A stretch of DNA of 48,262 nucleotides from Candidatus Methanoperedens sp. (GTDB lineage Archaea > Halobacteriota > Methanosarcinia > Methanosarcinales > Methanoperedenaceae): positions 1-48,262 of the forward strand of contig JAGFND010000004.1 of NCBI GenBank assembly GCA_021409285.1. Reading direction: 5' to 3'. Below the pieces are notes generated by a model. The model was not told where the DNA came from. It searched no databases and saw only the letters and a program-made list of their open reading frames with translations. Of this stretch, positions 29,346 through 41,847 are shown piece after piece. Made by a program: the position numbers and the translations under genes. Each line of letters begins with the position of its first letter. The stretch's first letter is position 1.

Positions 29346-30227
29346 ATGCAAGGAATGGGAGTTGTTGATATTCATACTCACACCATATATTCAGGTTTTT
29401 CTAAATTTTCCTTTATATCATATCCGGATAGTGTAACCACTCCCAGGACATCAGTTAAGGTTGCCGAGAAACTGGGGCTCGATATTCTCTGCATAACTGA
29501 TCACAACACGATCAAAGGCGCTGTACAAGCAAAGAAGTTCAATAAGGAACTGGTGGTGATAGGTGAAGAGATTTCCTCTGTTGACGGGGAAATAATCGGG
29601 TTGTTCCTCCAGGAGAATATAGATCCCGGCCTGAGCGGGGAAGAAACTATAGAACAAATACATGGACAGGATGGGATAGCCATTGCTCCACATCCATTCA
29701 GTGGATATTGCTCATGTGTGGGCAGAAAAATGAATTCATTAAGGTTGGATGGGATAGAAGTATTCAATGCTTTGCACAGGGATGGATATTCAAACGCTCT
29801 TGCACTTGAAAAATGTAATGGTCATGCAAAGCTTGGAGGAAGCGACGCGCACGCCAGTTTCATGATAGGGAATGGTTTTACTTTATTTGATGGAAGTTCT
29901 CAGGAAGATTTCCGTACAGGAATAAAAAATAAACAAACAATGTATGGTGGAAAAGTCACATCTCTTTCAGACTTCATATATTGCAGTTCACGTGTCGCAT
30001 ATGAATCGTCAAAGGCCATTCTGAATTCTAATGGCGTGGATTGCCCCCTGTCTGCCAGAATCTCCGAAACAAGATATTCACGGAAGATATTATATTTTCT
30101 GGGGTCTATATTATATGCATTTTCACCACTGCCGGTTGTATGTACCCTTATTGGCAATAGAATATTGAAAAATGAAGGACTCAGAATATGGAGAGATGAA
30201 CACTGTTTCCCTCTGAAAAAGGAGTGA
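29346..30227 (+). CDS. PHP-domain metal-dependent phosphoesterase, paralogue 1
   Basis: The protein has 293 residues. PHP metal ligands appear as DIHTHTIYS (HxH), CITDHNTIKG, GEEIS, IAPHPF and GGSDAHAS in the family order. The catalytic part ends near residue 220, followed by a hydrophobic segment (KILYFLGSILYAFSPLPVVC) that could be membrane-associated. Members hydrolyse phosphate esters or nucleotide phosphates; the substrate is unknown. It is about three-quarters identical, by eye, to the gene at 33945. Both stand before surface or export genes. Confidence 0.88.
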   Translation: MQGMGVVDIHTHTIYSGFSKFSFISYPDSVTTPRTSVKVAEKLGLDILCITDHNTIKGAVQAKKFNKELVVIGEEISSVDGEIIGLFLQENIDPGLSGEETIEQIHGQDGIAIAPHPFSGYCSCVGRKMNSLRLDGIEVFNALHRDGYSNALALEKCNGHAKLGGSDAHASFMIGNGFTLFDGSSQEDFRTGIKNKQTMYGGKVTSLSDFIYCSSRVAYESSKAILNSNGVDCPLSARISETRYSRKILYFLGSILYAFSPLPVVCTLIGNRILKNEGLRIWRDEHCFPLKKE

Positions 30228-30322
30228 TTTCATTTTTTTGAAATTGCTTTCATAAGATCTCAAAACTACTTTCAGGGGGATTTCAGGGAATTCATAAATG
30301 GTCTTTCATCTCAGGAGGAAAC

Positions 30323-30721
30323 ATGAACAAGTTAAAAATATTTGCTCTGGCTATGATCTGTCTGCTCATTATTGCTGCAGGGCTCAGGTTCGTATATTTG
30401 GATACACATTCATTCAAACTTAATGAGGATCAAAAAGTCTTCGCAATAAATGCCGCACAGAAGGGATTAAAAGATGAAATGGCAAATAACAATTATAATG
30501 CTACTGTCCAGGAACACGGGAGGATCGTGCCTTCCACAAATGGTGATAAAAAAGTTGTTCGTGTTGTTCTCACTAATGGAAATACAACATGGACCGCTCT
30601 TGTTGACATGGATACGGGGAATATAGTGGAAAAAAGCATGGTGGAACATAGTGGATGGATGACAGAGCCCGGAGAAGAAGATACCAATCACTGGGGTCAT
30701 CACGGTATATTCAACCGGTGA
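30323..30721 (+). CDS. Small membrane-anchored exported protein, PepSY-like
   Basis: The protein has 132 residues. The N-terminal hydrophobic segment (IFALAMICLLIIAAGLRFVY) anchors it; the outside part has VVRVVLTNGNTTWTALVDMD TGNIVE, resembling a PepSY-type beta unit, and ends with a His-rich NHWGHHGIF. It sits immediately before the MacB-type ATPase, with two bases between stop and start. A Shine-Dalgarno (CAGGAGGAA) precedes ATG 30323. It probably modulates or supplies the transport system. Confidence 0.6.
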   Translation: MNKLKIFALAMICLLIIAAGLRFVYLDTHSFKLNEDQKVFAINAAQKGLKDEMANNNYNATVQEHGRIVPSTNGDKKVVRVVLTNGNTTWTALVDMDTGNIVEKSMVEHSGWMTEPGEEDTNHWGHHGIFNR

Positions 30722-30722
30722 T

Positions 30723-31403
30723 ATGATGAAAACTTTGATGGAACTGCAGGGCGTCTGGAAAATCTATCGGATGGGGGGGACTGACGTGCCTGCACTTGCG
30801 GGAATAGACCTGACAATAAAAGAAAATGAATTTACGGCTATAACAGGACCAAGCGGATGCGGCAAATCAACAATGCTGAATATGATAGGTTGTCTGGATA
30901 TGCCCACACGTGGAAAGATTCTGCTTGAAGGAAAGGATGTATCGGAATTAAAAAGCAATGATCTTGCACGTATAAGAGGTAAAAAGATCGGGTTCATATT
31001 CCAGACTTTTAATCTGTATCCCACGCTGACGGCTCTTGAAAATATTCAACTGCCAATGAAGATCCATGAATTTTCGGAAAAAAAGATAGAAGACACATCA
31101 ACTAAACTTTTGGTTACTGTTGGATTGGCTGAACGTGGAGCTCATTTCCCTGCCCAGTTGTCCGGAGGACAGCAGCAGAGGGTCGCGGTAGCAAGAGCGC
31201 TCTCTACATCTCCTTCTATTCTCCTTGCAGATGAACCCACAGGGAATCTTGACACCAAATCGGGAGGCGAAGTAATGGACGTTTTTAAACGCTTAAACAG
31301 TGAGGGATTAACTATAGTTATGATAACGCATGACCCCAGAATTGCAGGATATGCAGAAAGAATAGTGAAAATGCTTGATGGAAAAATAGTAGGTGAAACA
31401 TGA
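30723..31403 (+). CDS. MacB/LolD-type ABC transporter ATPase, system 1
   Basis: The protein has 226 residues. Walker A is GPSGCGKST, Q-loop FIFQTFNLYP, signature LSGGQQQRVAVARAL, Walker B ILLADEPTGNLD, H-loop MITHDP. It belongs to the ATPase class that drives type VII ABC systems (MacB, LolCDE, FtsEX), which transmit force rather than pump through the membrane. It overlaps the exoprotein gene by four bases. Partner permease is at 32610. Confidence 0.93.
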   Translation: MMKTLMELQGVWKIYRMGGTDVPALAGIDLTIKENEFTAITGPSGCGKSTMLNMIGCLDMPTRGKILLEGKDVSELKSNDLARIRGKKIGFIFQTFNLYPTLTALENIQLPMKIHEFSEKKIEDTSTKLLVTVGLAERGAHFPAQLSGGQQQRVAVARALSTSPSILLADEPTGNLDTKSGGEVMDVFKRLNSEGLTIVMITHDPRIAGYAERIVKMLDGKIVGET

Positions 31404-32623
31404 AAAAATTCATTTTGATCTTAATGATCGTATCGACATTATTGTTCGCAGAGGTAGCATCCGCAACCTCTGGTTATCTTGTTACTGAAAGCGCACCGGT
31501 TTATCCAGGAGATATGACTTATGTCTATGTACCGATAAAGAACATGGGATTTGGCTCATATATGGAAGATGTATCGGTCAGACTTGTACCCAAAGATAAT
31601 GCTTCAGCAACTGCTGTGACTATCCTTAACGATGTTTATTCATTGGGGACTATAAACGACTGGGGTGACCAGAGGACAGCAAAGTTCAGGGTCCACGTAA
31701 ATCCTGAGGCTGTGGAAGGGGATTATTATTTCAATATCTATATTACCTTTATGGGGCAGCAAATAAGCAGTGGAACTCCGGCAACTCCAATGACCACCAA
31801 ACTCGAGGACCAGATATTGACAATCAAAGGCAAGCCGTTAATAGTGCTCCTCAATTCTACTATCAGTACGATAGCGCCGATGAGTATCAATAAGGAGACG
31901 CTCATTTTCAAGAATACAGGTACAGGCACGGTACAGAACGCCGTAGCAGAGATAAATCTTGCAGGAGCGAATTCAGTGTTCTCTGTTCTGGGCGGAGGAT
32001 CTCAATCTTCCCTCGGCAATCTGAAAGCAGGTGATGAAGTCGATATTACTTTTGACCTTGCCGTAGATATTGCTGCCCGTCCTGGCGTATATAACATACC
32101 TCTGAAAATTACCGGCATGAATAATTATTCTTCTACAGATTATATCGGAGTTGTTGTTGCAGGGACTACTGATTTTGAGATAAGTTACCAGGAGAGTCTG
32201 GGCTCATTTTCCCTCAATGTGCTAAACATAGGGGTTAATGAGGCCAGTGCAGTTGCTGTCAGCCTGCCACGTCAGAAGAATTTTTCTTTAACAGGAACTA
32301 ATTCATCCGTTCTTGGTAATTTAAATCCCGGTGATTACACGTCCGCAATATTCCAGATCACAAAAACCCCTGGAACAGGAAACATCCTTGAATTGGCGAT
32401 ACAATATACTGACACAAGCGGAAAACGATATACACTGGCAAAACAGCTCACTGTTGAGCTAACAAGCGGCGGTGGGCAGACCGGAACAAGAACAACAGGA
32501 ACGAACTATACGGTATGGGCACTTGTAATTGTGGCAATCCTTATCCTTTTCTGGCAGAGGAAAAAGATCCCGGGTTTGATTAAAAAACAAAAAATAACAG
32601 GCGAAACTAATGAGAATCTTTGA
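31400..32623 (+). CDS. COG1361-type exoprotein with CARDB-like repeats, system 1
   Basis: The protein has 407 residues. It has a signal peptide (FILILMIVSTLLFAEVASA), then three Ig-like beta domains of the CARDB/NEW3 type (PVYPGDMTYVYVPIKNMGF; SINKETLIFKNTGTGTVQNA; FSLNVLNIGVNEASAVAVSL). A C-terminal membrane helix (VWALVIVAILILFW) and a basic tail RKKIPG follow. It should sit outside, tethered, and contact the permease's outer domain as MacA does in bacteria; this comparison is inference. It overlaps both neighbouring genes. Confidence 0.82.
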   Translation: MKKFILILMIVSTLLFAEVASATSGYLVTESAPVYPGDMTYVYVPIKNMGFGSYMEDVSVRLVPKDNASATAVTILNDVYSLGTINDWGDQRTAKFRVHVNPEAVEGDYYFNIYITFMGQQISSGTPATPMTTKLEDQILTIKGKPLIVLLNSTISTIAPMSINKETLIFKNTGTGTVQNAVAEINLAGANSVFSVLGGGSQSSLGNLKAGDEVDITFDLAVDIAARPGVYNIPLKITGMNNYSSTDYIGVVVAGTTDFEISYQESLGSFSLNVLNIGVNEASAVAVSLPRQKNFSLTGTNSSVLGNLNPGDYTSAIFQITKTPGTGNILELAIQYTDTSGKRYTLAKQLTVELTSGGGQTGTRTTGTNYTVWALVIVAILILFWQRKKIPGLIKKQKITGETNENL

Positions 32624-33863
32624 TATTTTCAGTCTGTCACTGAGTCACGTTAAAAAAAGCAAAATGCGAAGCTGGCTCACCATAATAGGTATTGTAATAG
32701 GTGTGGCTGCGGTCGTCTCTATAATTTCCATAGGTGAGGGGATGCAGGAAAGTGTTCAATCCCGTCTTGGAAGTCTTGGAGCTGACCTGATCACTGTTAC
32801 TCCTGGTTTTTCGAGGGCAACCGGCGGCGGTTTTGAAGGGGGGAGATCAGCTCCAGGTGCCAGTATTAACCTTACTGATAAAGATGTGAACGTTATCAGG
32901 CAGGTACCCGGTGTGCTATATGTAAACGGTATGGTTTCGGGCAGGTCAGATATGGTATCAGGTACAGAAAAGACATCAGTATCCATAAGTGGGGTTGATA
33001 CTGCTGTCTGGCGCTCAATGGTCACTACACAACTTGAATCTGGCAGATATCTTCAGCCAGGTGACTCGAACTCAGTGGTCATCGGTTACTCACTGGCCCA
33101 TGAGACTTTCTTGCAGCCTTTAACCCTGAATAGACCAATCATAATAGGAGACAAGACTTTCAAGGTCGCCGGAATCTTTGTTCAATCAGGAGGGGGTTTC
33201 GGAGGAGGAGGAGGAGATAATGCAGTTTTTATGACTGCTGATTACGCCAGGGATGTGATAACGACGAATATATCCAGAAACACATTTAGTTCGATCATGG
33301 TTAAGGTATCAGATCCCACGCTCGCAGATAAAGTGGCTGGAGATATCATACTAAAACTTATGCCGTCAAGGCATGTGAATCAAAGAACCAGAGATTTTAC
33401 AGTCACAGCATTTGCCACAATACAGGCTCAGATAACAAGTGTGGTCCAGACCATATCGATGTTCCTTGCCGCGATAGCAGCGGTTTCGCTTATTGTAGGC
33501 GCTGTGGGCATAGCGAATACCATGTTCATGTCGGTTATGGAACGCACCAGGCAGATAGGATTGCTCAAGGCTCTTGGGGCTACAGATAATGAAGTGATGG
33601 AACTGTTCCTTATAGAATCCGGATTATTCGGATTTATCGGAGGAGTGATCGGAATAATAACCGGAATATTGATATCGGTCTTAATATCCGAAATAGGCCT
33701 TCGTGCAATAGGGCCTGGAGGGGCAATGAACGCAGTTGTCACTCCTCAACTTGTTGTATTTTCACTTGTATTCTCTGTATTCATTGGCGTGATCTCAGGT
33801 GTTGCGCCTGCAAGGTCAGCGGCAAAGATGAATCCGGTGGATGCATTGAGGTTTGAACAGTAG
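32610..33863 (+). CDS. MacB/FtsX-type permease, system 1
   Basis: The protein has 417 residues. The first membrane helix is in the SWLTIIGIVIGVAAVVSIIS region, followed by a large outside MacB_PCD domain (MQESVQSRLGSLGADLITVT, up to about residue 270) with a Gly-rich loop GGGFGGGGGD. Three C-terminal helices follow, starting FLAAIAAVSLIVGAVGIANT and with MERTRQIGLLKALGA. This is the standard MacB/FtsX layout. With ATPase and COG1361 protein it forms one operon. Confidence 0.92.
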   Translation: MRIFDIFSLSLSHVKKSKMRSWLTIIGIVIGVAAVVSIISIGEGMQESVQSRLGSLGADLITVTPGFSRATGGGFEGGRSAPGASINLTDKDVNVIRQVPGVLYVNGMVSGRSDMVSGTEKTSVSISGVDTAVWRSMVTTQLESGRYLQPGDSNSVVIGYSLAHETFLQPLTLNRPIIIGDKTFKVAGIFVQSGGGFGGGGGDNAVFMTADYARDVITTNISRNTFSSIMVKVSDPTLADKVAGDIILKLMPSRHVNQRTRDFTVTAFATIQAQITSVVQTISMFLAAIAAVSLIVGAVGIANTMFMSVMERTRQIGLLKALGATDNEVMELFLIESGLFGFIGGVIGIITGILISVLISEIGLRAIGPGGAMNAVVTPQLVVFSLVFSVFIGVISGVAPARSAAKMNPVDALRFEQ

Positions 33864-33902
33864 GAGATTTATCTGCAACATGAAATTAAACAATACTAAA
33901 AT

Positions 33903-33912
33903 CTTTATACTA
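33903..33912 (+). promoter_or_regulatory. TATA box of the second PHP gene
   Basis: CTTTATACTA lies about 35-40 bases before ATG 33945, with a CAGGGGG ribosome site in between. The pattern matches the promoter of the paralogue at 29346. Confidence 0.5.
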
Positions 33913-33944
33913 TAGGGACTAATACTAGAAGCAGGGGGCAAAAT

Positions 33945-34820
33945 ATGCAGGATATAGGAGTCGCGGATATTCATACACACACCATGTATTCAGGTTTCTC
34001 GAAATATTCGTTTTTATCATTCCCGGATAGTGTAACCACTCCCAGGAAATCAATTAAGGCTGCCGAAAAACTGGGACTCAATATTCTATGCATAACTGAT
34101 CACAACACGATTAAAGGTGCACTTGTTGCTCAAAAGTACAATAAGGATCTGGTTGTGATCGGTGAAGAGATATCTTCAAACGACGGTGAAATATTGGGAT
34201 TGTTCCTTCAAGAGCAAGTCGATCCCGGCTTAAGTGCCGAAGAAACAATTAAACAAATACATAGTCAGGATGGGATAGCCATTGCTCCCCATCCTTATAG
34301 TGTATATTGTTCGTGTGTGGGTGAAAAAATGAACGCATTGAAGTTTGACGGGATCGAAGTATTCAATTCATTACACAGGGATGGATATTCAAATGCTCTT
34401 GCACTGGAGAATTGTAATGGGCATGCGAAGCTTGGCGGAAGTGACGCGCATGCAAGTTATATGATAGGAAACGGTTATACGTTATTTAATGGAAATTCTC
34501 AGGAAGATTTTCGTAATGCCATCAAGAATAGAAAAACAATTTATGGTGGAAAAGTCGCATCTCTTATGGATTTTGTCAATTATAGTGCACGGGTAGCTTA
34601 TGAATCCTCAAAGACGATCCTTAAGTTCAACAGCGTAGATTGCCCCATGTCTGCCAGAATATCCAGGGTAAGAAATTCACGCAAGATATCATATCTGCTG
34701 GGTTCTCTCGCCTTTGCATTTTCACCTCTGCCTGTTGTTTGCACCCTGATAGGCGATAGGGTGTTGAAACATAAAGGACTTAAAATATGGAGAGATGTAC
34801 ACCGTTTTCCTTTGAGATAA
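33945..34820 (+). CDS. PHP-domain metal-dependent phosphoesterase, paralogue 2
   Basis: The protein has 291 residues. All metal-ligand blocks of the first paralogue are kept (DIHTHTMYS, ITDHNTIKG, GEEIS, APHPYS, GGSDAHAS), together with the hydrophobic C-terminal segment (SYLLGSLAFAFSPLPVVC). Its position directly after the first export operon suggests a tandem duplication of a block. It is convergent with the CorA-fusion gene, 14 bases apart. Confidence 0.87.
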   Translation: MQDIGVADIHTHTMYSGFSKYSFLSFPDSVTTPRKSIKAAEKLGLNILCITDHNTIKGALVAQKYNKDLVVIGEEISSNDGEILGLFLQEQVDPGLSAEETIKQIHSQDGIAIAPHPYSVYCSCVGEKMNALKFDGIEVFNSLHRDGYSNALALENCNGHAKLGGSDAHASYMIGNGYTLFNGNSQEDFRNAIKNRKTIYGGKVASLMDFVNYSARVAYESSKTILKFNSVDCPMSARISRVRNSRKISYLLGSLAFAFSPLPVVCTLIGDRVLKHKGLKIWRDVHRFPLR

Positions 34821-34834
34821 GGATGGATTCTCAA

Positions 34835-36268
34835 CTACTTTAACCAGCCGCGCCTGTAAAAGGCATATACTGACAGGAGCATTAGAGATAACTCAAGAAA
34901 AAATAGCTCAGTGATACTGACTGGATACGGGCTATCCACCAGATTCACTCCAAAGAGCCCGCTGATGATTGAGGGGATAAGCCCAATGCTGGTGATCACT
35001 GCAAGAATTCTCATGACGCTGTTTAACCCGATAGATACCGTATTTATATGAAACTCTATCAATGAGATCAAATTGTCTCTAACATTTTCCGATGTTTCAG
35101 ACAGATAGGTTGACTCATCATAGAGAATGCCAAAGAGGGGAAGATACCCATCTTTTGAACCGGCAAATAATAGCTTCCCACTACTTATAGCTTTGAGCAC
35201 CTGCGTAAAATGCCAGAGATTGCCGTGGATTTTCTGGATCTCTTTCTTGAAGTGGAAAGTATCCTCCAGAAATGAAGGACGCGCCATGCCTGCAGGATTT
35301 TCTTCCATTGCGATTTCTTTTTGTTCAAGGAGCCGCACAACCTCATCATAATCCACGATTTTTCCTCTGAAAATTGAGTACAGGATGCTAACAATAAACT
35401 TCTCTTTTTTTTCCATAACCTGGCCATCGCTGATCAGCTGATCAAATAGCTCACTTTTACCAGCGGAAATTGTGGCGATATAGTTGCCTCTGAGGATAAT
35501 CAGCATTTTGTTTATTGAGAAATCGATATCCTTGATACCCGCACCTTCTGATTGCAGTTTCATATCCCTGATGAATATTGAGGTAAAGTCCTTAAAGAAG
35601 TCAATCTTTGGATAGGATTCTTTGATGATTTTACTTATTAGCAAAAACGAGGGGATTTTTAGGGCATCACTGATGATATCAATATCAGGCTCTGAAACCT
35701 CCTGTAAATCGACCCATCGATACGCAAAATCAGCCAGATGGCCAGAGAGATCTTCCTTCAATGCGCCTTTTATTGTCTTTCCATCCGTAAGAATGTTGAT
35801 CTTCATCCGCGAGACCAGCGGCCCGGTTCTCTTTATGGGTCTTACCGGGATGGCCCGTTTGACCGTTCTACCCGCTACAGCAAATATCCTGGTAACCCTG
35901 AGGAGTCTGAGCAGGGGTGATGTTCTTCCGATTCCCCCAAATGGAATCCATGGGATGAAGGTTGGTAAAGTCAGGGCAACGATCAAAAGATCAAGGATAT
36001 GCCACGGATTTGTGGCATATGCCCTCCTCGAATCTGCTACATACAACTTTGAAAAGTACTCAAGTGCAAAGATTACAATAATAATATAGTTCACAACTCT
36101 GAATAAGACTATCATGAAGTGTGAAAATATAAATAAAAAAGGTAAGAATATGGTCGGAATTAACAGCAATGCAAGCACTATCATCAGATGGTCTGTGAAT
36201 ATCTGATATACAGGGTCTCTCAACCTGAGGCGTAGCGGCAGTTTTTTCCCTGTGGATTGTGACTGCAT
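34835..36268 (-). CDS. Voltage-sensor-like domain fused to CorA-family metal channel
   Basis: The protein has 477 residues. Residues about 25-145 hold four membrane segments of the ion-channel voltage-sensor type: S1 (LMIVLALLLIPTIFLPF), S2 with an acidic ALEYFSKLYV, S3 NPWHILDLLIVALTLP, and S4 with arginines every third residue (LLRLLRVTRIF). No S5-pore-S6 follows. Instead a CorA-type cytoplasmic domain runs to about residue 415, with the two CorA helices at the end (MRILAVITSIGLIPSIISG and LFFLELSLMLLSVYAF). The selectivity motif is GVN (GLFGVNL) in place of GMN. It probably moves divalent cations; voltage gating is inferred from the fusion. Confidence 0.82.
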   Translation of the reverse strand: MQSQSTGKKLPLRLRLRDPVYQIFTDHLMIVLALLLIPTIFLPFLFIFSHFMIVLFRVVNYIIIVIFALEYFSKLYVADSRRAYATNPWHILDLLIVALTLPTFIPWIPFGGIGRTSPLLRLLRVTRIFAVAGRTVKRAIPVRPIKRTGPLVSRMKINILTDGKTIKGALKEDLSGHLADFAYRWVDLQEVSEPDIDIISDALKIPSFLLISKIIKESYPKIDFFKDFTSIFIRDMKLQSEGAGIKDIDFSINKMLIILRGNYIATISAGKSELFDQLISDGQVMEKKEKFIVSILYSIFRGKIVDYDEVVRLLEQKEIAMEENPAGMARPSFLEDTFHFKKEIQKIHGNLWHFTQVLKAISSGKLLFAGSKDGYLPLFGILYDESTYLSETSENVRDNLISLIEFHINTVSIGLNSVMRILAVITSIGLIPSIISGLFGVNLVDSPYPVSITELFFLELSLMLLSVYAFYRRGWLK

Positions 36269-36352: not shown

Positions 36353-36637
36353 TTATAACTCAAATTCTTCAATAAAACCCAGTATTAATTTGTATTTATC
36401 CAGATATCTAAATCCTTTATCAGTCAATGTCAGGAACTTCCTTTCATTTTCATCAGTAATCTCCTTGATCAAACCCTTTTCTAATAATTCATTAAAGTAT
36501 TCTGAAAAACTTTGTGACGATAGATTCGAATGTCTGAGCAAAGGAGTAGGCTTTATAGAATTATGATGATTTCTAATAATATTTAAAATATCAAATATCA
36601 TCTCCAGACGATCTCTTTTGCGCTTTATTTTGTCCAT
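36353..36637 (-). CDS. Winged-helix regulator, archaeal HTH_45 type
   Basis: The protein has 94 residues (RLEMIFDILNIIRNHHNSIK, then TPLLRHSNLSSQSFSEYFNE LLEKGLI, and LTLTDKGFRYLDKY). This is the archaeal helical-winged-helix type (PF14947). It overlaps by 13 bases the preceding membrane-protein gene, so it is co-translated with it and may regulate the divergent secreted-protein operon at 37407. Confidence 0.8.
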   Translation of the reverse strand: MDKIKRKRDRLEMIFDILNIIRNHHNSIKPTPLLRHSNLSSQSFSEYFNELLEKGLIKEITDENERKFLTLTDKGFRYLDKYKLILGFIEEFEL

Positions 36638-37290
36638 CTGGACACCTTTTGGTAGATTATTCCGATCACTGCAATAGATATTATCTCTAAGATAGTATGT
36701 ATTTCAAATGGAATAAATCTTCGTGGACCTAAGGCGAGGAGATTAACTATCCAGAACAGGAAAAACAAAAAATATAAAATAAAAAGCTGGGAGATCTTTC
36801 TTGATCTGCTGTAAATATATATAGCCATTATTATTGTGAAAATGAGTAACACTGCCTGTGCTTCTATAAGAAGATCCGATGATCTTGAAAAAAATGTGAT
36901 TCCGGATATTATAATGGCAACAGCATTTGATAATATTAACACATGTTTGATCTGCAGCTCCTTCCAGATCATGCTGTAAGTCAATGAGAGAATACCCATT
37001 GTGCTAAAATATCCATTAAAAACCAAAGGAAATATCCTGAAAATATATCTTGAAATATCGATATCAAATGTCATTCCCATTAGCATCACAAAAACAGATA
37101 AAAATCTAAACAGAAAGGCCAGACCGAAGAATAAAAAAGTGATCCTGAAATATTTTATTCCCTCATACTTTGTAAGATCATATATTTCTCTTGTTTTATA
37201 ATATATTGAAAAACAAATAAATACAACTATTAATGTGTAGCTAAGTTCTACGAGCAGTCTCGTTGGGTCAATCAGATGATATGGGGACAT
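36625..37290 (-). CDS. Seven-helix membrane protein of unknown function
   Basis: The protein has 221 residues, nearly all hydrophobic, with about seven membrane segments (LLVELSYTLIVVFICFSIYY at the start, AVAIIISGITFF, AQAVLLIFTIIMAIYIY, LFILYFLFFLFWIVNLLAL, near the end). No channel, transporter or signalling motif stands out. Paired with a winged-helix gene, it resembles archaeal sensor/regulator pairs; this is only context. It is divergent from the 37407 gene with a 116-base shared promoter region. Confidence 0.6.
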   Translation of the reverse strand: MSPYHLIDPTRLLVELSYTLIVVFICFSIYYKTREIYDLTKYEGIKYFRITFLFFGLAFLFRFLSVFVMLMGMTFDIDISRYIFRIFPLVFNGYFSTMGILSLTYSMIWKELQIKHVLILSNAVAIIISGITFFSRSSDLLIEAQAVLLIFTIIMAIYIYSRSRKISQLFILYFLFFLFWIVNLLALGPRRFIPFEIHTILEIISIAVIGIIYQKVSRWTK

Positions 37291-37996: not shown

Positions 37997-38512
37997 ATGA
38001 TTAAAAAAACATTAATATTATTACTTTTTCTTGCAATAGCAATTCTGTCAGTAGTCCCGGAGTCTTTTGCACGGCCCCAGTATGTTGCAAATCTAACAAC
38101 AGTATATGGCGATGATTCATGCAGCACCTGCCATGTCATAGCTTCAGGCAGTGGAATGCGCGACTCCAATGGAACATTCGGACAGCAAAACCCTAACGGG
38201 ACTTATGTCCCACGCAATACCAACAGAACACCAGGGCAGCGTCGCTCAAATGGAACGTTCGGAATGCGTAACTCAAACAGAACGTTCCCGCGCAACTCGT
38301 ATGGGACCTTATTTGAGAACCAGCCTGACCATGCTACTGATCCCGGTGCAGCCCTGATAGCTATCGGGCAGCCACCTGCAGCAACGGCAATCCCCCCTGC
38401 AGATACAGCAGTGACGGCCACAGGGACTAAAGCGGCTCCAGGACTCGGAATTGTGTTATCCCTTGTCGGATTATTTACATGTGCTCTCCTGGCCAGGCGG
38501 CATAATAAATGA
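37997..38512 (+). CDS. Exported monoheme c-type cytochrome with sequon-rich linker and membrane-anchor tail
   Basis: The protein has 171 residues. It has a signal peptide (ILILLLFLAIAILSVVPESF), then one heme-binding CSTCH motif (about residues 42-46), with a Met in SGSGM as possible sixth ligand. Next is a linker with repeated SNGTFG and NRT units carrying six N-x-T sequons, then an Ala/Pro/Thr stretch. The tail APGLGIVLSLVGLFTCALLA RRHNK resembles the PGF-CTERM sorting signal read by archaeosortase, suggesting lipid anchoring and S-layer placement. It directly precedes and overlaps by four bases the second MacB-type ATPase gene. It could carry electrons to or from outside proteins. Confidence 0.75.
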   Translation: MIKKTLILLLFLAIAILSVVPESFARPQYVANLTTVYGDDSCSTCHVIASGSGMRDSNGTFGQQNPNGTYVPRNTNRTPGQRRSNGTFGMRNSNRTFPRNSYGTLFENQPDHATDPGAALIAIGQPPAATAIPPADTAVTATGTKAAPGLGIVLSLVGLFTCALLARRHNK

Positions 38513-39216
38513 TGGAAACTATAATGGAACTGCAGGATGTCTGGAAAATTTACAGGATGGGCGAAGTGGAAGTTCCAGCACTGAAAGGAATAAGTGTTAA
38601 GATAAAGAAAGGCGACTTTGTGGCTATCATAGGTGCATCGGGAAGCGGCAAGTCCACAATGATGAACCTGATAGGCTGTCTTGATATTCCCTCAAGAGGG
38701 AATATCTATCTCAAATCGCAGGATATAAGCTCTTTAGGCGAATCTGACCTGGCATCATTCAGAGGTAGGACTATTGGTTTCATTTTCCAGCAATACAACC
38801 TGATCCAATCAATGTCTGCTTTTGAGAACGTGATGCTTCCACTGGAATTTTTGGAGTATAATGACCAGAAAGCAGCGACAAGAACAAGAGAAATTTTGAC
38901 ACTTGTGGGACTGGGCGATAAGATGCATCACAGGCCAACACAACTTTCTGGAGGTCAGCAGCAAAGAGTGTCCATAGCAAGATCCCTTGTGAGTGATCCT
39001 GAAATAATTCTTGCCGATGAACCGACTGGAGCCCTGGACAGTGTTACAGGCAGAGAAGTCCTGGATATGCTTCGCAGATTATGGGAAGAGCAGGGAAAAA
39101 CGATCATCATGGTCACTCATGATCTTAATCTGGCGAAATATGCTCACACAAGAATTGAACTGAAAGATGGGGAGATTTTGAAAATATCTGAAAATAATGA
39201 GGTAAATAAGAAATGA
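38509..39216 (+). CDS. MacB/LolD-type ABC transporter ATPase, system 2
   Basis: The protein has 235 residues. Walker A is GASGSGKST, Q-loop FIFQQYNLIQ, signature LSGGQQQRVSIARSL, Walker B IILADEPTGALD, H-loop VTHDLN. It is a paralogue of the ATPase at 30723 (shared start ELQDVWKIYRMGEVEVPAL against ELQGVWKIYRMGG). It overlaps the cytochrome and exoprotein genes by four bases each, so the whole set is one translation-coupled operon. Confidence 0.93.
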   Translation: MMETIMELQDVWKIYRMGEVEVPALKGISVKIKKGDFVAIIGASGSGKSTMMNLIGCLDIPSRGNIYLKSQDISSLGESDLASFRGRTIGFIFQQYNLIQSMSAFENVMLPLEFLEYNDQKAATRTREILTLVGLGDKMHHRPTQLSGGQQQRVSIARSLVSDPEIILADEPTGALDSVTGREVLDMLRRLWEEQGKTIIMVTHDLNLAKYAHTRIELKDGEILKISENNEVNKK

Positions 39217-40586
39217 AAAAAATAATGTTCCCAGTTATGCTAATACTGGTATTGATGGCTTACGCACCTGCAGTTAATGCGGCGCTGGCAGACTCGACAG
39301 TACTATCGATAAGCCTTGCAAACTATGACCCCAATCCTGCTATCGCAGGAGATACTGTAGATGTACGCATAGGTATCCAGAATATCGGCGGTACCACTAC
39401 TAACGATCTTATGCTGGAAATTGTACCAGAGTATCCTTTTGAGCTTGTACCAGGTGAAAACGCCGTCCAGGATGTAGGAATAGTTCAAGAGTATCAGGCG
39501 GATTCTACTCAAAATATAAAAGTCGTAACGTACCATATGCAAATAAACAAAAACGCTCCGGCAGGAAGTTACGAACTCAAAGTTAAGTATTATGAGCAGG
39601 GTTCAAACGAGGTGACTCAGAAAAGCCTGTCCCTTGAAGTAAAAAGCAAGGAAAGCGCTGAAGTTATACACATTGACCAGACGATGCTCGTTCCTGGAAA
39701 GCAAAGCAGCTTAAAATTCACAATCAATAATGTCGGGAATGCTCCATTGAGGGATTTGACTTTCAGCTGGGCGAATGATGATAAGATAATCCTTCCAGTC
39801 GGAAGTGACAATACCAAATATATCAGGTATATTGATATTGGCAATGGCACTGACCTGGAATACCAGGTGATGGCAGATACTAATGCACAGCCGGGATTAT
39901 ATAAACTGAACTTATACCTGACTTATGAAGATTCAATGTCAAATCAAACGAAAACAATAAGCACATTTGCCGGAGTTTATGTTGGCGGAGGAACAGATTT
40001 CGATGTGGCATTCTCGGATAATACAAATGGCCAAATGTCTTTCAGCGTCGCAAATATTGGAAGCAATCCTGCAAACTCGGTATCAGTGGTTATTCCCGAT
40101 CAGCCAGGCTGGAGTGCAAGCGGTTCAAATTCAGTTATCATAGGCAATCTGAACAAAGGAGACTATACGGTTGCAAGCTTCAAGTTGCAGTCCATGATAA
40201 GTAATATGACTTCCATGACTTCCCAGAATAGATCCTTCAGAAACAATACCAACTTCCAGGGAAGGTCTATGCAAAGACAAACAAATAGTTCATCTGATAC
40301 ATTGCTCATACAAATAGCTTACACCGATACCAGGGGAGAAAGAAATGTCGTTGAAAAATATGTCAAAATCGGACTGCAAAACATCGCATCTGCTGATGGA
40401 CAAGCCGGTTTTCAGGGACGAAGAGGAGCCGCACAACAAACAAGTTTTCTCTCTAATAACATGCTGTATTTCCTGGGAATAACGGTGCTTGTTGGTGCTG
40501 TTGTAGTCCACAGGAAGTACAAGAGCCGCAAACTGCTTGATCCTGGTTTCAAAATGAAGGATTTATTCAAACACCAGAAGAAATGA
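39213..40586 (+). CDS. COG1361-type exoprotein, system 2
   Basis: The protein has 457 residues. It has a signal peptide (MLILVLMAYAPAVNAAL), then CARDB-like beta domains (PNPAIAGDTVDVRIGIQNIG; MLVPGKQSSLKFTINNVGNA; GQMSFSVANIGSNPANSVSV). An Asn/Thr/Ser-rich insert (MTSMTSQNRSFRNNTNFQGR) with sequons follows, then a C-terminal helix (MLYFLGITVLVGAVVVH). It is a paralogue of the 31400 gene with the same order of parts but a longer third section. It would be tethered outside the membrane beside the permease. Confidence 0.82.
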   Translation: MKKIMFPVMLILVLMAYAPAVNAALADSTVLSISLANYDPNPAIAGDTVDVRIGIQNIGGTTTNDLMLEIVPEYPFELVPGENAVQDVGIVQEYQADSTQNIKVVTYHMQINKNAPAGSYELKVKYYEQGSNEVTQKSLSLEVKSKESAEVIHIDQTMLVPGKQSSLKFTINNVGNAPLRDLTFSWANDDKIILPVGSDNTKYIRYIDIGNGTDLEYQVMADTNAQPGLYKLNLYLTYEDSMSNQTKTISTFAGVYVGGGTDFDVAFSDNTNGQMSFSVANIGSNPANSVSVVIPDQPGWSASGSNSVIIGNLNKGDYTVASFKLQSMISNMTSMTSQNRSFRNNTNFQGRSMQRQTNSSSDTLLIQIAYTDTRGERNVVEKYVKIGLQNIASADGQAGFQGRRGAAQQTSFLSNNMLYFLGITVLVGAVVVHRKYKSRKLLDPGFKMKDLFKHQKK

Positions 40587-40605
40587 TAATTTCCTGCAGG
40601 TTAAA

Positions 40606-41847
40606 ATGAAGCTTAAGAAATGTTCTAAACATGCATTCAATATGGTTCTGCACAGCAAGCTGCGAAGCTGGCTGACTATAACTGGCATAGTTATAGGTGT
40701 TGCTGCGGTTATTGCGATCGTATCAATAGGCGATGGGATGCAACAAACGCTGAATGCGCAACTGAACACTCTTGGGGGAGATATTGTGACGATCTCGCCA
40801 GGCGCTGAACGGGGCGGGGGCATGTTCGGCATGAGAGGCGGCGGGGGAGGAGGCGGTTCTTCCGGACCTCAGGCAACGACCAAAGAAATAGTATTAGGCA
40901 GGAGTGATCTCCAGGCTTTGAAGGGTTTATCGGATATTGCTCTCATAGACACAAATATCAGAGGTAGCGTGAATATATCCTATTTTGGTAAAACAGGCAA
41001 AGTATCTGTAACAGGCGTTGACCAGAAAGTATGGTCTCAAATCACGACCTCTACTATACAAACTGGCAGGACGCTTGATTCTGCTGATCAGAATGTCATA
41101 GTTATCGGGGGAAATCTCGCATCCTCTTATTTTGACCAGCCAATCGGGATCAATAAGATGGTAACGATAAACTCCGCTGCCTTCAGGGTTGTGGGAATTC
41201 TTGATGACCAGACCACCAGTGTTTACATGCCGATCCAGATGGCATACCAGGTGATCCCTGACAAGACGACGGATATCTACGACACACTTGTTGTAAAGAT
41301 CAAGGACCAAAATCAGTTAGACGCATCAATCTCGAATATCCAGGACAAACTTATGATCTCAAGACATGTTACTCAGAATAAGATGGATTTTTCAGTCACT
41401 TCAAGAAAGGAAATGCAGCAGGCAAGAGCAGCTACGATGAATTCAATGAGTACTTTTCTTCTTGCCATAGCAGCAGTTTCATTGATCGTAGGTTCCATAG
41501 GGATAGCAAATACTATGTTCACTTCTGTCCTTGAGAAGACTAAAGAAATTGGAATAATGAAAGCTATCGGTGCACGTAATCAAGATATTCTGCTCATATT
41601 CCTGTTCAATGCAGCATTTATAGGACTCGTAGGAGGGATCCTGGGCATAATCCTTGGAACAATGCTTTCAGGCTTCATGCCTGCTCTTATGGGAGGTCTG
41701 CCAATGGCAAGAGGGACCGCAATAGTCACATTAAACTCGATAACTATGGCATTGTCTGTATCGGTTTCAGTAGGAATACTTGCAGGAATAATTCCTGCGT
41801 ACCAGGCATCAAAATTGAAGCCTGTTGATGCGTTGAGATATGAATAA
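40606..41847 (+). CDS. MacB/FtsX-type permease, system 2
   Basis: The protein has 413 residues. It has the first helix at LRSWLTITGIVIGVAAVIAI, an outside MacB_PCD domain (MQQTLNAQLNTLGGDIVTIS) with a GGGGGGGSS loop, and three C-terminal helices (FLLAIAAVSLIVGSIGIANT; ILLIFLFNAAFIGLVGGILG; LSVSVSVGILAGIIPAYQ). It is closely related to the 32610 permease. The gene starts 19 bases after the exoprotein stop. TATA-like AACTTTATGTAA lies shortly after its stop, marking the next transcription unit. Confidence 0.92.
   Translation: MKLKKCSKHAFNMVLHSKLRSWLTITGIVIGVAAVIAIVSIGDGMQQTLNAQLNTLGGDIVTISPGAERGGGMFGMRGGGGGGGSSGPQATTKEIVLGRSDLQALKGLSDIALIDTNIRGSVNISYFGKTGKVSVTGVDQKVWSQITTSTIQTGRTLDSADQNVIVIGGNLASSYFDQPIGINKMVTINSAAFRVVGILDDQTTSVYMPIQMAYQVIPDKTTDIYDTLVVKIKDQNQLDASISNIQDKLMISRHVTQNKMDFSVTSRKEMQQARAATMNSMSTFLLAIAAVSLIVGSIGIANTMFTSVLEKTKEIGIMKAIGARNQDILLIFLFNAAFIGLVGGILGIILGTMLSGFMPALMGGLPMARGTAIVTLNSITMALSVSVSVGILAGIIPAYQASKLKPVDALRYE

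Follow-up and report, generated by a model that had tools for sequence, protein, structure and literature searches.

A gene on the minus strand of the DNA analyzed here, a 48,262 nt stretch from Candidatus Methanoperedens (hereafter, the window), encodes an S1-S4 voltage-sensor domain (VSD) joined to a CorA domain within a single open reading frame. Altogether, 28 distinct full-length fusions of this kind were detected across three archaeal families. On balance, we lean towards reading the protein as a pentameric CorA-type divalent-cation channel that is gated by membrane potential and carries one VSD per subunit. The architecture, its conservation and the common ancestry of the fusions are established by the sequences; the pentamer, the passage of Mg2+ or a comparable ion, the voltage gating and the coupling path are what we infer in this proposal.

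The Pfam profile Ion_trans (PF00520) matches residues 29–148 of the window protein (E = 2.8e-12; 46.8 bits, cut-off 25). This match spans profile positions 6–125 of 241, that is, S1-S4 only, and ends before S5. The Pfam profile CorA (PF01544) matches residues 183–465 (E = 2.2e-30; 106.4 bits, cut-off 27). Thus, both domains score above their curated cut-offs in one ORF, as proposed in the first-pass annotation, which had described an S1-S4 bundle in front of a CorA domain with no S5-pore-S6. The protein is not a P-loop channel by its Pfam architecture, in which S4 is followed by CorA. When solved structures were searched with phmmer, the C-terminal part retrieved the CorA proteins of Thermotoga and Methanocaldococcus, and the N-terminal part a T-type Ca2+ channel (5.9e-6). 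Hydropathy and charges of S1-S4 fit an N-in/C-in topology. S4 runs into a strongly basic linker, GRTVKRAIPVRPIKR, which enters the cytoplasmic alpha/beta domain of CorA, followed in order by the stalk helix, TM1, the GxN loop and TM2 (Table 1). AlphaFold2 models had a pLDDT of 37 and a pTM of 0.23 for the full protein with a three-sequence alignment, and a pLDDT of 62 and a pTM of 0.34 for the VSD alone, with S1 and S2 merged; both models were too poor to serve as evidence.

Table 1. Features of the VSD-CorA fusion gene, in window positions.
Feature	Position	Strand	Residues and basis
VSD-CorA fusion gene, 477 aa	34835..36268	-	single ORF (ATG at 36268, stop at 34835); Pfam Ion_trans and CorA; 28 distinct full-length homologues
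S1	36125..36190	-	residues 27-48; hydropathy, Pfam match
S2	36041..36097	-	residues 58-76; F67, E70, K74 of the charge-transfer centre
S3	35951..36004	-	residues 89-106; carries D93
S4	35852..35920	-	residues 117-139; R121-R124-R127, then R134-K137-R138
CorA domain	34838..35794	-	residues 159-477; PF01544, profile match to TmCorA/MjCorA
TM1, pore helix	34952..35026	-	residues 415-439 (about 413-439 by hydropathy); N416 = N288 of TmCorA
GxN motif, here GVN	34943..34951	-	residues 440-442
TM2	34856..34912	-	residues 453-471 (about 450-471 by hydropathy); CorA profile alignment to TmCorA

Other Methanoperedens genomes carry this fusion as a single open frame (66–79% identity), and two public records encode it at 66–67% identity. 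Within the genus, the fusion is present in eight of the 31 genomes, with one copy being partial. The whole-genome search covered one archaeal phylum, and a profile search of its 394 genomes added two further families with full-length fusions, at E-values between 1e-84 and 1e-57. In family f7, matches were found in 14 of the 40 genomes, 13 of them full-length (one with an internal stop codon) and one broken. Family f15 contributed matches in 12 of 108 genomes, some of them partial and located at contig ends, and a class-wide search added one frame-split copy from a fourth family, f24. Across families, the fusions share only 21–32% identity. No relative was found among the viral contigs or plasmids searched.

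A sequencing or frame error that joined two adjacent genes, the objection that the first-pass annotation had raised against its own reading, is practically negligible as an explanation. The search for further S1-S4/CorA fusions, also suggested there, showed the same one-frame junction in all 28 distinct sequences from the three families, including genomes in one or few contigs, and the fusion-bearing contigs include two of 2,478,101 and 2,542,943 bases. The recurrence of the fusion in one open frame across families speaks against a frame error and equally against a chance S4-like pattern. The artefact is ruled out by the homologues, and nothing was found in its favour. The conservation of the architecture over three archaeal families argues for a function.

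Several copies deviate from the intact form. Those designated L038/L076 (genome G398), L069 (G438) and G535:C173 are broken after S4, interrupted close to the end by an in-frame TGA, or frame-split, and could represent either decaying genes or sequencing errors. In family f7 (L027–L031), the open frame reaches 25–390 residues further upstream than the fusion's probable start; these extensions showed no sign of translation. The 570-aa open frame L128, which matched the sensor, was considered as a second kind of fusion and was rejected, being an ordinary 6TM TVGYGD channel that ends a long frame.

The sensor half retains the signature residues of an S1-S4 voltage sensor. The charge-transfer centre in S2 is invariant among the 28 full-length fusions (F67, E70 and K/R74, 28/28 each), as is W89 in S3, and D93 is present in 25, the three sequences lacking it all being from f15. 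In S4, R121 is found in all fusions and R124 and R127 in 20–21 of the 28; every fusion has two to four S4 arginines at three-residue spacing. The R121-R124-R127 series is retained in Methanoperedens, in f7 and in L033, and L074 is without a three-residue stretch there. In the remaining seven f15 sequences, R118-R121 is found together with Gln at positions 124 and 127 and, in five of the seven, with R115; their charges are shifted outward by about two helical turns, with the three-residue spacing retained. The first-pass description of an acidic S2, an Asp in S3 and an S4 with Arg at every third residue is matched in the window protein by E70, D93 and R121-LL-R124-VT-R127. A search with the VSD profile against the PDB yielded 163 chains at E ≤ 0.01. 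The 60 top-ranking ones were all voltage-gated Na+/Ca2+/K+ channels or prokaryotic ion-transport proteins. Judged by homology, charge-transfer centre and S4 spacing, the assignment of the N-terminal half as a true S1-S4 voltage-sensor domain is fully supported at the sequence level.

The fusions share one origin. In the CorA tree, the fusions form one side of a branch with an SH-aLRT support of 99. In the VSD tree, they form one group (90), and the group beside it (80) consists of archaeal 6TM K+ channels that have TVGYGD filters. The three clades f1, f7 and f15 are recovered in the trees of both halves alike; the branches are long, so that the placement is unsure, whereas the grouping is not. 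A wide gap was also seen in the phylum-wide VSD search, with E < 1e-47 for the fusions and 1e-14 for the next-best 6TM channels. This pattern is consistent with a single ancient event in which a K+-channel-type sensor became fused to a CorA, the two halves then being passed on together. Over 11 close pairs, dN/dS was 0.12–0.28 for the VSD and 0.13–0.36 for the CorA part, indicating that purifying selection keeps both halves. Among the 6TM K+ channels themselves, two from other members of the phylum (L123 and L133, with TVGFGD filters) have a Cys-rich tail, CPNCGLS..CKACGH, that looks like a zinc ribbon.

The CorA half matched TmCorA and MjCorA over nearly the full length in the profile search, with E-values of about 1e-28 to 1e-27. 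By its Pfam domain, the GxN ending TM1 and two C-terminal TM helices, the window protein belongs to the CorA superfamily (2-TM-GxN); CorA in the strict sense has GMN and the M1 metal site, both lacking here, and a higher score with the TIGR00383 equivalog (80.7 bits for the fusion, cut-off 200.75). The first-pass annotation had emphasized GVN in place of GMN. This motif is indeed present in the window protein, but it is not a trait of the family: only G and N are fixed (28/28), and the middle position is M in 14, T in six, E in five, V in two and S in one of the fusions. The idea of GVN as a special selectivity motif was therefore rejected. Of other TmCorA residues, S284 and M291 are conserved in 28/28 and the pore Asn N288 in 25/28. 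Further along TM1, T295 is replaced by Ala and T299 by Ala or Ser in all fusions, A298 by Thr or Ser in 27 of the 28, and the proline at position 303 in sensor-less CorA is at 304 in 28/28. With a polar pore track unlike that of TmCorA, conduction may differ or be poor.

Another consistent difference concerns the M1 site. The two residues that form this intersubunit metal site in TmCorA, D89 and D253, which have been tied to regulation or stability of the channel (PMC3629940), are each found in 0/28 fusions. Among sensor-less CorA-family proteins, D89 is present in 71/75 and D253 in 75/75, in a comparison set that consists of 75 proteins of the same phylum, taken best matches first (one without GxN), mostly Thermotoga-like and not the nearest possible sister group, CorA sequences being mutually distant. 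Going by the alignments, the absence of the M1 residues from every fusion strengthens the case for voltage gating. It need not mean that ligand gating was lost, because M1 mutants of TmCorA are still able to close (PMC8865849) and Mg2+ in MjCorA is bound elsewhere than at M1 (PMC3629940).

The behaviour of these mutants is also in line with a different reading, in which S1-S4 was acquired from a K+ channel as a structural module only, for anchoring, assembly or lipid contact, with voltage gating lost and the CorA part constitutive or metal-gated. The loss of D93 in three f15 members, two of which have only two spaced S4 arginines, points in the same direction. An anchor, however, would hardly require F67, E70, K/R74 and R121 in 28/28 sequences at 21–32% identity across families, and the Arg spacing is retained although the S4 charges shift. 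We regard this explanation as unlikely, though worth serious attention. Clearly less probable is a reversal of roles, in which S1-S4 either conducts, as an Hv1-like proton or cation leak, or is the output, with CorA serving as metal sensor or non-conducting scaffold. Isolated VSDs such as Hv1 can conduct (PMC13095418), and the fusion pore helix is unlike TmCorA at the polar track; yet GxN, S284, M291, N288 and the TM helices are retained, and the M1 site, which would be expected of such a metal-sensing part, is exactly what is missing.

The genomic setting says little about function. In the window, the fusion gene has a PHP-domain gene on one side and a winged-helix gene on the other. No gene neighbourhood is conserved across families, the fusion alone being common to all 13 loci, and no metal-specific genes were found beside these 13 loci. 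Some other features of the window were noted. In the regions 29346–34820 and 38509–41847, on the two sides of the fusion gene, lie duplicate ABC cassettes (ATPase, large exported protein and MacB/FtsX permease) and two PHP-domain genes; the same ABC cassettes flank the fusion L055 in genome G027. The region 36353–37290, which precedes the fusion gene and shares its strand, encodes the winged-helix protein (HTH_45), the start of which overlaps the end of a gene for a 221-aa membrane protein without a Pfam match. These two are possibly a sensor-regulator pair.

In the window assembly, which is 97% complete, PF01544 detected one other protein, on contig C13. It lacks GxN, which leaves the fusion as the only GxN CorA seen there. 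This second CorA-family protein (L104, G000:C13:8946-9851) has TVFSNPAYNMG in place of GxN, and almost every genome in the genus has a match of comparable score and length. A search of the assembly with PF00520 gave no other S1-S4 protein, only a match to the pore region. Within the genus, a canonical CorA is present in two of the eight fusion genomes and 12 of the 23 others, a difference that is not significant (Fisher p = 0.24), so that mutual exclusion of fusion and canonical CorA is unsupported. A voltage-gated channel of this kind might instead be dedicated to a cation other than Mg2+, for example, Co2+, Ni2+, Zn2+ or Fe2+. The variable middle of GxN (M, T, E, V or S) and the differences from the sampled sensor-less CorA at TM1 positions 295, 298 and 299 and at the proline would accord with this, and TmCorA, MjCorA and ZntB each carry Mg2+, Co2+, Ni2+ and Zn2+ (PMC6972854). 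On the other side, metal-specific neighbours are absent, and with no other GxN CorA in the window assembly a housekeeping Mg2+ role is possible; we consider a dedicated non-Mg2+ channel very improbable.

If the fusion is a voltage-gated CorA, its N-in/C-in S1-S4 bundle would preserve the topology required by CorA, and S4 would lead through the basic linker directly to the part of CorA that moves the pore helix, its cytoplasmic alpha/beta domain. When the potential changes, S4 would shift past the charge-transfer centre (F67, E70 and D93) and thereby push or release the cytoplasmic domain, the movement of which would turn the stalk/TM1 helix and open or close the pentameric pore. For TmCorA, it has been proposed that metal binding in the cytoplasmic domain drives a rotation of helix 7/TM1 that gates the pore (PMC3629940); a voltage-driven S4 shift could use the same lever. 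Voltage control would then replace or override the M1-site metal feedback of the Thermotoga-type CorA. Opening on depolarisation and opening on hyperpolarisation are both compatible with the sequence. CorA transport without a sensor is already stimulated by membrane potential (PMC6972854), so that gating must be separated from driving force. The complete scenario, a VSD-gated pentameric divalent-metal channel with a non-P-loop pore that arose by one ancient fusion and in which voltage control superseded the M1 site, has in our estimate slightly less than an even chance of being correct.

Like TmCorA and MjCorA, the fusion has the PF01544 domain, the cytoplasmic domain followed by TM1-GxN-TM2, the pore Asn N288 and the Gly and Asn of GxN; it differs from them by four additional N-terminal TM helices, the lack of D89/D253, the replacement of T295/T299 and the variable middle of GxN. 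The archaeal 6TM K+ channels (TVGYGD) have the same S1-S4 family and include its closest VSD relatives in the tree, but continue into S5-pore-S6 where the fusions have the CorA domain. VSP and Hv1 also have S1-S4 without S5-S6. The S4 of VSP connects straight to its cytoplasmic effector, which is an enzyme, and Hv1 has no effector. The sperm Na+/H+ exchanger SLC9C1 likewise combines a VSD with a transporter from a different superfamily (PMC6052114, PMC10620092) and offers an earlier example of a non-P-loop transporter driven by a VSD (PMC10620092). In contrast to the fusion, it is a eukaryotic exchanger, and its VSD comes behind the transport domain and ahead of a cyclic-nucleotide domain. A 2023 paper named SLC9C1 as the only known VSD-regulated transporter (PMC10620092), and a voltage-sensor review of 2024 treats channels, Hv1, SLC9C1 and VSP, with nothing relevant on CorA or magnesium in its text (PMC13095418). 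Searches of open-access full text found no VSD-CorA protein. Both parts are of known kinds, and their joint is, as far as searchable, undescribed in open-access full text.

Known voltage sensors belong to P-loop channels, a phosphatase or a single exchanger, or stand by themselves, as in Hv1. Voltage gating of the CorA fusion is directly testable, and the protein is small. If this reading is correct, the sensor domain would be portable to an unrelated pore that is thought to be five-fold, and the fusion would provide a prokaryotic system for sensor-effector coupling. In methanogens and methane oxidisers, the entry of Mg or another divalent metal would then be tied to the energisation of the membrane.
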